Positions 10,212 to 43,105 of a stretch of DNA of 43,290 nt are shown here, piece after piece. The stretch lies in the NCBI GenBank assembly GCA_029260255.1, contig JAJDDR010000111.1, forward strand, positions 1-43,290, given 5' to 3'. Source of the DNA: Phycisphaerae bacterium (lineage in GTDB: Bacteria; Planctomycetota; Phycisphaerae; UBA1845). The position numbers and the translations under genes were made by a program. How positions within the stretch are numbered: position 1 is the stretch's first letter; each line of letters opens with the position of its first letter. The notes under the pieces are model-generated. The model searched no databases. It was not told the origin of the DNA and was given only the letters and a program-made list of their open reading frames with translations.

Positions 10212-10411
10212 GGGCTTATCCTTCTCCCCGCCGGGCCTCGGCGGATCGTTGTCGGACTATGCCGGACGTGCGAAGCGCGAACAACGAGACGATGCGGCTA
10301 TCCCACCTGCGTTGATTGTACGCGTCCTCGGTTTTTCCCACCTACCTGTCCGTAGGATTGTAGAATGGGGTGGTGAGGGTGTCAATCGACGACGTTGCTG
10401 GCCCGCTGCGG

Positions 10412-10525
10412 GGGTGTGGCCAGGGATTTTGGCATGCCAATGGCGGGTTCCACCCGCCTTCTTGCTCGGTTGCGGCGGGTAAAACCCGCCCTACCCGGAC
10501 GGTGCCAAGAAGAACAGCCACACCC
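10412..10525. mobile_element. Diverged copy of the MITE-like palindromic element
   Basis: GGGTGTGGCC...CCACACCC ends; internal GGCGGGTTCCACCCGCC and GGCGGGTAAAACCCGCC hairpins; flanked by CCGCTGCGG at 10403-10411 and 10525-10533 (one boundary C is ambiguous). Confidence 0.75.
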
Positions 10526-10753
10526 CGCTGCGGCCCCGAAACGCCGGTCCGATAGTCTCGAGCCACGCGTCGTTGGCGGGGCGTCCTAAAGGAATCGCTC
10601 GCCGAAACCGACGATGTAGGCGTGCGCACGGCGAACGGTGGGCAGCCGCGATTCGTTTGCTTCGCCCTCGGTGTGCGCTTTGGCGAGTTGCCGAAACCGA
10701 AACGCAGGAGTGATGGCGTGAGCGGACCCCGCAGCCTCGATTCTCTCCACAAG

Positions 10754-28185: not shown

Positions 28186-28297
28186 ACGCGCCCCTGTTCG
28201 ACAGCAGGTTTCCCCGACACACACACAACCGTGCTGCCGGGCGACATTTTCCGACACATTTGATCGCCCAAGATCCCTAACTTTCCCATACTGACAC

Positions 28298-28426
28298 GGG
28301 TGTGACCATTGATTGTGGCATGCCAGGGGTAGGGCGGGTTCCACCCGCCTTCTTCCTCGGTTGCGGCGGGTGAAACCCCCTACGGCATGTCCCTGACCAA
28401 CGATGCCACAGAGAATGGTCACACCC
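28298..28426. mobile_element. MITE-like palindromic element, copy 2
   Basis: GGGTGTGACCATT...GTGGCAT / ATGCCAC...AATGGTCACACCC; nested GGCGGGTTCCACCCGCC hairpin; flanked by TACTGACAC at 28289-28297 and 28427-28435. Confidence 0.88.
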
Positions 28427-28561
28427 TACTGACACCACGTTTCCATTCCACGCTCGACATGCCGGTGGTCGCGACGCTACGATGCGCTTGCCTTCAGATC
28501 GTCGTGAATCCGTTGTGCCCCGCGCGATCCATTCTGCGTAGGGAAGCGAGGATGTCGACCG

Positions 28562-29668
28562 ATGCAAACCGGAAACCAACACCAGGGCACGCCCGCACGC
28601 AGACGCGTTGAGGCTGCCGAGCGGGTGGTTTCGCGCGCGTTCACGCTCGTGGAACTGCTGGTCGTAATCAGCGTCATCGCAACACTGATGGGCATGTTGG
28701 CTCAGTCGTTGCGCAATGCGCGGGAGCAGGCGCGCGTGGTGGTCTGCTGCGCGCATACCGCCGCCATCGGTCGCGCGGCGGCTTCATACAGCTCCGAGAT
28801 GCGGCAGTGGTTGTGCGGTTCCCCCGGCACGAGCGGCAGTGTCATGTTCTCCGATGAACAGATCGAGAGCACCGACGAGGACATCGCCACCGACCCCTCA
28901 CAGATTTGGGACTACGCCGGGGCGCTGGGTCCAACCTACATGAACAGATCGTTACCGGCCAACCGCGCGGAACGAATGCGGACGCTGGTGGAAGACGGAT
29001 TCGCCTGCCCCTCCAACAGCTACTTCGCCGATCCGATTCAAGGCTCCACCGAAGAGGTGGGACCGATCGGTTCGTTCGACCGGCAGCCGATGGCCAGCTT
29101 CAATACGATTCGCAACTTTCTGATGTGGCCTCGGACGATGGTCGATCGGGATCCGTCACAGCCGTGGGGGCCGATCGCACCGTTTCCGCAGGCCAGCTTC
29201 GACACGATCGGCGGGCGGACGCTTCGACCGAAGAACTACAAACCTCACATCGACCGCATCACCAACCCGGCCGGCAAGGTCTATCTGGCCGACGGCAACC
29301 GCTACACGGACGGCGAAGGAAACATTACCTACGACGTCGAGTGGGACGCAGAGGCCGGCGGAGCGTTTTGCAACGGCGGGCCGACGCTACCGCTTACGCA
29401 CGGCACGAACCCCCACGTGCTATCGAGTTACCAAATCGACATGAGCATCGGCAAGATCGGCTACCGTCATATCAGCGCCGGCGATCGCGGCATCGTGGCG
29501 AACTTCTTCGACGGTCACAGCACGTTCGTCTCCGAGCCGGAATCGCGCGAGCCGGACTATTGGTGGCCTCGGGGTACGGTCATTCCCTTTTCCGAATTGA
29601 ACGAATCCAGCCTCAAGTGCGTCACCGGGCGCCTTCGACCGGACTACAGCTACCGCGTCGGGCGGTAG
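28562..29668 (+). CDS. Type II secretion/pseudopilin-like protein with prepilin N-terminal methylation motif
   Basis: RAFTLVELLVVISVIATLMGMLAQSLRNAREQARVVVC; C-terminal HISAGDRGIVANFFDGHS resembles the H-x9-DG motif of planctomycete pseudopilins. Confidence 0.87.
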   Translation: MQTGNQHQGTPARRRVEAAERVVSRAFTLVELLVVISVIATLMGMLAQSLRNAREQARVVVCCAHTAAIGRAAASYSSEMRQWLCGSPGTSGSVMFSDEQIESTDEDIATDPSQIWDYAGALGPTYMNRSLPANRAERMRTLVEDGFACPSNSYFADPIQGSTEEVGPIGSFDRQPMASFNTIRNFLMWPRTMVDRDPSQPWGPIAPFPQASFDTIGGRTLRPKNYKPHIDRITNPAGKVYLADGNRYTDGEGNITYDVEWDAEAGGAFCNGGPTLPLTHGTNPHVLSSYQIDMSIGKIGYRHISAGDRGIVANFFDGHSTFVSEPESREPDYWWPRGTVIPFSELNESSLKCVTGRLRPDYSYRVGR

Positions 29669-37521: not shown

Positions 37522-38772
37522 TCACGGTTTTGGATGGACGGGGAGTACTCGACCTTTCTTGATAACGCGACGTACGCAGTTTCTTCCTGCATTGTAGGGG
37601 AGTTGGTCGTAGTTCTCCACGTCGAGGATGACGAGGTCTGCTTGCATACCTCGGGCGATCGTGCCGATGCGATCCGCTCGGTTGAGGGCGGCGGCGGCGG
37701 TCGCGGTGACGCCGGCGAGGCACTCGGCGGGCGTCATTCTCATCTGCGTGCAGGCGATGGACATGACCAAGGCGAGCGATTCGACCATGGATGACCCGGG
37801 GTTGTAATCGGTCGCCAGCGCCACGGGCAACCCTGAGTCAATGATCTTGCGGGCGGGAGCCTGCTCGACGCCCAGGAACCACGAGCAGCCGGGAAGCAGG
37901 ACCGCAATGACGCCCGCCTCTTTCATGGCGGCGATGGCGCCGTCGTCAATGGCCTCCAGGTGATCTGCTGATATCGCTCCGACTTCCGCAGCCAAACGTG
38001 ACGCGCCGATCTGCGTGATCTGATCGGCGTGCAGCTTGGGCGTCAGCCCGTACTCCTTCGCCCTGAGCAGGATGCGGCGCGATTCGTCGACGGTGAAGGC
38101 GGTGCGTTCGGTGAAGACGTCGCAAAACTCCGCAAGCCCCTCGCGTGCAACGCGGCCCATCATCTCGTCGCTGCACACGAGGTCGATGTACGCGCCGCGG
38201 CGGTCCGCGTACTCAGCCGGGACGGTGTGCGCGCCCAGAAACGTCCCGACGAGTTCGATCGGTTGCATTGGGTTGAGCTTCTTGACGGTGCGGAGCATCT
38301 TGAGTTCGTCGTCGATGCTCAGACCGTAGCCGCTCTTGATTTCGACAGTGGTGACGCCGCCGGCCAGCATGCGTTCCAACCGCGGAAGCGCCAGGGCGAC
38401 GAGATCGTCTTCGCTTGCCTCGCGAACGGCTCTGACGGTCGTCTTGATCCCGCCGCCTTCTTCGGCAATCTGTGCGTAGCTCTTGCCTTCGATGCGCTTG
38501 ACGAACTCGTCCTCGCGCGAGCCGGCGAAGACGGTGTGCGTGTGGCAGTCGATCAGACCGGGCAGAACGCACTTGCCCCCCGCGTCGATGACTTCGTCGC
38601 CGGGCGGCTTGGCTGGCCCGTCCCCGTTCCCAAACGATTCAATCCGCTCACCCTCGATCCGCAACCAAGCGTTGTGAAGCACATCGACCCCGTAGGGCGG
38701 GCTCTGCCCGCCGTCTTCTGCGAGCCGAGCACGCGGCATGGCAAGTTGCCCGATGTTCTGAATAATGATCAT
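37522..38772 (-). CDS. hutI: Imidazolonepropionase
   Basis: GGKCVLPGLIDCHTHTVFAGSREDEFVKRIEGKSYAQIAEEGGGI, TVEIKSGYGLSIDDELKMLR, FLGAHTVPAEY, ALATDYNPGSS. ATG at 38772. Confidence 0.94.
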   Translation of the reverse strand: MIIIQNIGQLAMPRARLAEDGGQSPPYGVDVLHNAWLRIEGERIESFGNGDGPAKPPGDEVIDAGGKCVLPGLIDCHTHTVFAGSREDEFVKRIEGKSYAQIAEEGGGIKTTVRAVREASEDDLVALALPRLERMLAGGVTTVEIKSGYGLSIDDELKMLRTVKKLNPMQPIELVGTFLGAHTVPAEYADRRGAYIDLVCSDEMMGRVAREGLAEFCDVFTERTAFTVDESRRILLRAKEYGLTPKLHADQITQIGASRLAAEVGAISADHLEAIDDGAIAAMKEAGVIAVLLPGCSWFLGVEQAPARKIIDSGLPVALATDYNPGSSMVESLALVMSIACTQMRMTPAECLAGVTATAAAALNRADRIGTIARGMQADLVILDVENYDQLPYNAGRNCVRRVIKKGRVLPVHPKP

Positions 38773-42564: not shown

Positions 42565-42599
42565 CCCGCGTTTATACCGCCGGCCGAGGTCTGGGCAAA

Positions 42600-42730
42600 G
42601 GGTGTGACCATTGATTGTGGCATGCCAGGGGTAGGGCGGGTTCCACCCGCCTTCTTCCTCGGTTGCGGCGGGTAGAACCCGCCCTACGGCATGTCCCTGA
42701 CCAACGATGCCACAGAGAATGGTCACACCC
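42600..42730. mobile_element. MITE-like palindromic element, copy 3
   Basis: Nearly identical to the 28298 copy; GGGTGTGACCATT...AATGGTCACACCC; flanked by CTGGGCAAA at 42591-42599 and 42731-42739. Confidence 0.88.
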
Positions 42731-42854
42731 CTGGGCAAAGTCGGGTCGCTTTTGGAATTGAATTCGGGTGGGTTCGCGCGTACACTCCCGAAGCTGTCGA
42801 CGGCGTTTGTTTCCGTCGACGCGGTGATCGGGCCTGCGGGCGTGATTGCATGAT

Positions 42855-42928
42855 GGTGGGCGTAGCTCAGTTGGTGGAGCACCAGGTTGTGGTCCTGGGG
42901 GTCGCGGGTTCAAGTCCCGTCGCTCACC
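42855..42928 (+). tRNA. tRNA-His (anticodon GTG)
   Basis: Acceptor GTGGGCG/CGCTCAC with an extra 5' G; D-arm TAGCTCAGTTGGTGGAGCA; anticodon arm CCAGG-TTGTGGT-CCTGG; T-arm GCGGG-TTCAAGT-CCCGT; no encoded CCA. Confidence 0.95.
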
Positions 42929-43105
42929 CGTTGGTTGGATCGACATAACATAAGGTGAATCCGCGCGTTGCGAATACCCGCCTGATCGCGGCGCTTCTCG
43001 GACGGCGCGCCGGGTGGTGCTTCGGCCGCACCTGGACCGCCTTCACTACTCCACAGGGAATCGCCCGTCGGCGACCCTTCCCCCAGTCCTTTCCGCCCAA
43101 AAAAT

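Follow-up and report, generated by a model that had tools for sequence, protein, structure and literature searches.

The 129-bp segment at positions 28298-28426 of the window (the whole analysed stretch of 43,290 nt) is in all likelihood one copy of a two-layer mobile element, in which a promoter-directed MITE moved by the ISKra4 family carries a GTAG-tagged REPIN as a passenger. As proposed here, an ISKra4-family (Mutator-like DDE) transposase would recognise the MITE ends and move the MITE in trans, and the insertion would give rise to a 9-bp (sometimes 8-bp) duplication. The targets of insertion would lie upstream of sigma-70 promoters, such that the -35 box is 26-28 bp away from one end of the inserted MITE, and the REPIN would have entered an ancestral MITE copy, apparently a single time, and then multiplied as its passenger.

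Three MITE copies, all on the plus strand, were found inside the window. The copy at 28298-28426 belongs to subfamily A, is 97% identical to the 131-bp form and lacks 2 bp of the second REP arm in comparison with it, while its TIRs (GGGTGTGACCATTGATTGTGGCAT and GGGTGTGACCATTCTCTGTGGCAT) match at 21 of 24 positions and the target duplication TACTGACAC lies on its left (28289-28297) and right (28427-28435). A first-pass annotation of the window had described these coordinates, TIRs, the inner hairpin and the duplication, all of which were reproduced. Its first REP arm, GTAGGGCGGGTTCCACCCGCC, occupies 28329-28349 on the plus strand as an exact 21-mer, of which the genome holds 63 copies and none of the backwards control. 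The copy at 42600-42730, which the annotation had pointed to as better preserved, is indeed the full 131-bp reference form, bordered left and right by a 9-bp duplication of its own, CTGGGCAAA (42591-42599 and 42731-42739), and three other copies in the genome are 100% identical to it. Its REPIN cargo, an inverted REP doublet GTAG...CTAC of 57 bp, lies at 42631-42687 on the plus strand and shares its exact borders with free copies in relatives. Besides these two copies, which had been recognised from the start, a third had been overlooked, namely a diverged 114-bp member of subfamily D at 10412-10525, the first REP arm of which is short by 5 bp and which is flanked by the 8-bp duplication CGCTGCGG (10404-10411 and 10526-10533).

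The genome, of Phycisphaerae type (Planctomycetes), is a draft assembly of 5.75 Mb in 618 contigs. A DNA search of the whole genome resulted in ~41 full or near-full copies, and 142 occurrences of the end motif GGGTGTGRCCA were counted, versus 7 for its backwards control. In total, 67 MITE copies belonging to at least four subfamilies (A, B, C and D) were curated, 47 with a perfect 9-bp flanking duplication and 6 more with a perfect 8-bp one; the flank match exceeds 9 bp in none of the 67. Randomly re-paired flanks match at 9/9 positions in 0.16% of cases, and the observation at 28298 is far beyond chance. Genome-wide copies without duplications had been named as evidence that would speak against a mobile element; the counts give no refutation, and the sequences support the earlier reading of a MITE with a 9-bp duplication that is probably moved in trans. 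Several MITE copies located at unrelated sites are identical throughout (100%), indicating that transposition was recent.

The copies are biased to intergenic positions and the 131-mer folds into one hairpin with a z of about -9, features that would also suit a static origin, with extragenic repeats or RNA elements multiplying via the duplication of larger segments. This explanation is next to impossible, as it is already contradicted by flanks that differ copy by copy and by precise duplications, and identical copies are located on different contigs. An Rfam search of the sequence returned tRNA only, with no match to the MITE, and the covariation check for an RNA role was uninformative owing to few compensatory pairs. 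Moreover, the orthologous site in the relative G016, between tRNA-His and the neighbouring gene (named prmC from its translated sequence), is without the MITE. As an empty-site comparison this confirms the absence of the MITE, although the intergenic sequence is too diverged for a single 9-mer to be made out.

Some arrangements of copies deserve separate mention. Side-by-side MITE pairs on contigs C257 (L031) and C616 (L032) reflect either a common target 9-mer or insertion at the edge of the first MITE. At L022 (C575) and L039 (C458), MITEs of different subfamilies are inserted in the same 9-mer CCGCTCCTG and adjoin the same repeat TCATTCCGAGCGTAGC, so that another dispersed repeat serves as a repeated target in this genome. 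An 84-bp TIR pair (L209 on C508, with a similar one on C222) was set aside, since it is without a target duplication.

As judged by sequence comparison, the family that mobilises the MITE is very probably ISKra4 (Mutator-like DDE). The trail leads from unpaired ends to the end of contig C121, which carries a MITE-like TIR and, after it, the start of a gene. Close copies of this IS end were found in G016 and G001, and the G016 copy runs into a partial and frameshifted protein matching NF033572, the ISKra4 transposase (E 8e-7), with a wider match at the same place reaching E 1e-24. In the genome under study, the end GGGTGTGGCCATTATTCGTGGCAT on C372 adjoins an ISKra4 transposase 3' end, and transposases in G017, G021 and G016 likewise have matching ends on their 3' side. 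Altogether, seven IS ends match the MITE TIRs at 20-23 of 24 positions, versus 19/24 for the best of 53,636 background 24-mers. Five of them adjoin NF033572-matching sequence (C372 in this genome, C594 and C183 in G016, C26 in G017 and C101 in G021), and the other two (C121 here and C278 in G001) share a 5' region with the G016 C594 copy.

Elements of the ISKra4 group feature IRs of 18-39 bp, duplications of 8-9 bp and sigma-A promoters as targets (PMC3942029). The MITE TIRs of about 24 bp, beginning GGGTGTG, are inside this IR range and have the conserved terminal C/G, the MITE duplications (9 bp in 47 and 8 bp in 6 of 67 copies) fit the 8-9 bp trait, and complete ISKra4 elements in relatives possess GGGT ends and 9-bp duplications. 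The mobilising partner would be an ISKra4-type element with GGGTGTGACCATT ends, and a living ISKra4 transposase presumably acts on the MITE in trans. From about 24 bp inward, the MITE and the IS ends are no longer similar, and simple internal deletion of those ISs therefore does not explain the MITE.

An intact ISKra4 element was not found among the 618 contigs of the assembly, which contain only end fragments and a transposase 3' remnant. C121 reaches about 140 bp into the IS before it breaks off; many copies of a similar IS in G022 are cut in the same way, and such contig breaks suggest, without proving it, a collapsed multicopy element. The G022 contig ends (L115, L117-L126) bear at least 16 copies of this IS with the left end GGGTGTGGCTATTTCC, most of them near contig ends; a search of G022 for an ISKra4 transposase gave none, and the copies are broken by the assembly where they were read, which accounts for the absence of the transposase from the G022 genome record. 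A pattern scan of named genomes for the IS end hit two Phycisphaerae MAGs and gave single matches in Methylovulum, Tabrizicola and Anaerolineales, at which a second IS end was not found. Several truncated copies of a second IS-end family, with the end GGGTGTGGCCATCTTCGTTGGCGCGG and the gene start MDHDVPMHRL, were also encountered (C234 at L086/L127, C400 at L129, C551 at L130 and C100 at L132), possibly representing another ISKra4-type element. The sequence behind the GGGTGTGG end at C234 is presumably IS66-like, by reading of its translation.

The copies show a preferred distance from promoters. Among the MITE flanks, a sigma-70-like score of at least 8/12 was reached by 24% at exactly 27 bp from the MITE end, by 6% at 28 bp and by a mean of 0.25% elsewhere. 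The promoter test was defined as such a score at 26-28 bp outside the MITE end; both threshold and window were set after a first scan had revealed the peak, which is the single one over 150 positions. By this test, 39 of 67 copies possess a promoter with its -35 box 26-28 bp from one end, versus 1.2% of random sites. Both sides could be scored in 62 copies, of which 38 have the promoter on one side and none on two, and in the other 24 a recognisable promoter was not found at the expected spot. In subfamily D the promoter is always at the same MITE end.

All three copies in the window obey the 27-bp rule. The -35 box of a sigma-70-like promoter (TCGACA-18-TACGAT, 28454-28483, plus strand) starts 27 bp past the end of the 28298 copy, directed toward the ORF at 28562. 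Likewise, TTGAAT-17-TACACT (42758-42786, plus strand) lies 27 bp past the 42600 copy and upstream of tRNA-His (42856-42929), and TTGACA-17-TACAAT (10357-10385, minus strand, score 11/12) has its -35 box 26 bp from the end of the 10412 copy. The MITE-free prmC/tRNA-His site of G016 shows the same arrangement with conserved -35 and -10 boxes, demonstrating that the tRNA-His promoter is older than the insertion.

The same spacing was found for ISKra4 itself. Complete ISKra4 elements of G038 exhibit a promoter peak at 26-27 bp (7 of 10 copies, 6 scoring at least 8), in every case next to the transposase-3' end, and copies in G012, G021 and G016 show the 26-28 bp spacing, in G021 and G016 on the transposase-3'-end side. 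The left ends of ISKra4 in relatives, as a group, gave no promoter spacing signal. Part of the ISKra4 group is known to insert upstream of sigma-A promoters, and the published promoter distance, for TnGBS-type elements, is 15-17 bp (PMC3942029). The -35 spacing of about 27 bp from the IR is roughly one helical turn above that value, and the target site of this lineage may lie about one helical turn farther upstream.

The second layer of the element is its inner palindrome. Positions 32-88 of the 131-mer consist of GTAGGGCGGGTTCCACCCGCC, a spacer and GGCGGGTAGAACCCGCCCTAC, in which a GTAG-tagged REP forms an inverted doublet. The first-pass annotation had seen a single nested-palindrome MITE; the MITE stands, but the inner palindromes do not belong to the MITE proper and constitute a mobile repeat of their own, namely a REP doublet with GTAG tags (REPIN). 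In relatives, chiefly G024, the doublet also occurs free, with homology stopping exactly at GTAG and CTAC. In the genome under study, 55 of the 63 exact REPs are located inside MITEs or MITE remnants, and two of the eight outside are at a RAYT gene. This gene, on C489 (NF047646, 175 bits at a cut-off of 80), bears the identical REP on both flanks, and the REPs beside its orthologues are the same in G016 and near-identical in G021 and G024. A RAYT of G002 (C156, L244), 67% identical to that on C489, is flanked by the changed GTAG REP GTAGGGCGGGCAYTGCCCGCC, a pattern suggestive of REP-RAYT co-divergence. Outside any MITE, the window also contains a solitary, diverged REP-like hairpin, GTAGGGCGGGCTCTGCCCGCC, at 38690-38713.

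The presence of a cognate RAYT with the same flanking REP raises the question of whether RAYT, a Y1 HUH enzyme, moves the whole unit as an overlong REPIN, the outer palindrome being an insertion target for REP only, as in Anabaena. REP dimers inside palindromes are indeed already described (PMC3733652). This route is highly improbable, as it is already contradicted by the 8-9 bp duplications, which differ from copy to copy and lie outside the outer TIRs; in addition, the outer ends agree with those of ISKra4, as does the promoter rule, while free REPINs stop at GTAG/CTAC, without the arms. Duplications of 8-9 bp are not known to be a product of the single-strand Y1 mechanism. With an ISKra4-moved MITE carrying the REPIN, most REP copies in this genome would now spread by the ISKra4 route rather than by the RAYT route.

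Between copies, the REP arms are 94-97% identical, the TIRs 87-88% and the arms between them 64-84%, making the REP arms the best-conserved part of the MITE, and a REP-less MITE (44-74 bp) was not found in 40 genomes. These observations, together with the single hairpin of the 131-mer and the adjacency of MITE copies to promoters, would fit a cooperative element of which the REP doublet is a working part, its hairpin shielding the promoter by insulation, supercoiling relief or the ending of transcripts, with intact REPINs being kept. Such cooperation is unlikely, since copies with damaged REPINs persist (28298, 10412 and those on C49, C337 and C257), the constant REPIN position is explained by one ancestral capture, gene conversion or young copies could underlie the higher REP conservation, and a clear terminator was not found at the 42600 copy. 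For the passenger reading, it is possible that the REPIN aids the persistence of the composite. That two unrelated transposition systems live in stable partnership, the REPIN being kept intact because it alters or buffers the effect of insertion on the promoter, is a doubtful further view; if it were true, a promoter-seeking ISKra4-type MITE would disperse the REPIN and place REP hairpins systematically at a fixed 27 bp upstream of sigma-70 promoters.

The MITE layer and the REPIN layer are both of known kinds, and the combination seems to be without a known report, as neither a REPIN-MITE composite nor an ISKra4 MITE was found in the open-access literature. The element provides a case, supported by sequence, in which a DDE-type MITE spreads a REPIN. 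REP dimers in fixed palindromes, formerly noted without a mobilising family, gain both a probable family and a landing rule, and the promoter targeting of ISKra4 now includes a non-autonomous element of high copy number. As one genome offers dozens of natural insertions at one spacing, the effect of a REP hairpin on neighbouring promoters becomes directly testable.

The outer layer resembles ISKra4 (p-MULT 4, Mutator-like DDE; PMC3942029) in its GGG/CCC IR ends, its 8-9 bp duplications and the one end facing a sigma-A promoter, and, both here and in relatives, matching ends adjoin transposase sequence. The MITE differs in that it is non-coding, 131 bp long and loaded with a REPIN, with the -35 box at 26-28 bp from the IR versus about 16 bp. 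The inner 57 bp form an inverted doublet like the REPINs and GTAG-tagged REPs associated with RAYTs (PMC3116915, PMC3733652), and in this genome as in relatives the REP also borders a RAYT gene; the cargo differs in spreading here mainly within a DDE-type MITE and not as free units.

The closest parallels are the GTAG-15 dimers of Anabaena variabilis and the CGTC-1 dimers of H. neapolitanus, which are likewise REP dimers within a fixed outer palindrome that is not seen alone (PMC3733652, section 7). That section assigns the palindrome neither a transposase family nor a target duplication or target rule, whereas all three are given here for the MITE. Two different mobile elements are also joined in one unit in the group I intron-MITE of Thiomargarita, termed 'MITEtron' (PMC4853749), in which the MITE is inside the intron, in contrast to the present element, where a REPIN resides inside a MITE and the unit is dispersed in dozens of copies.
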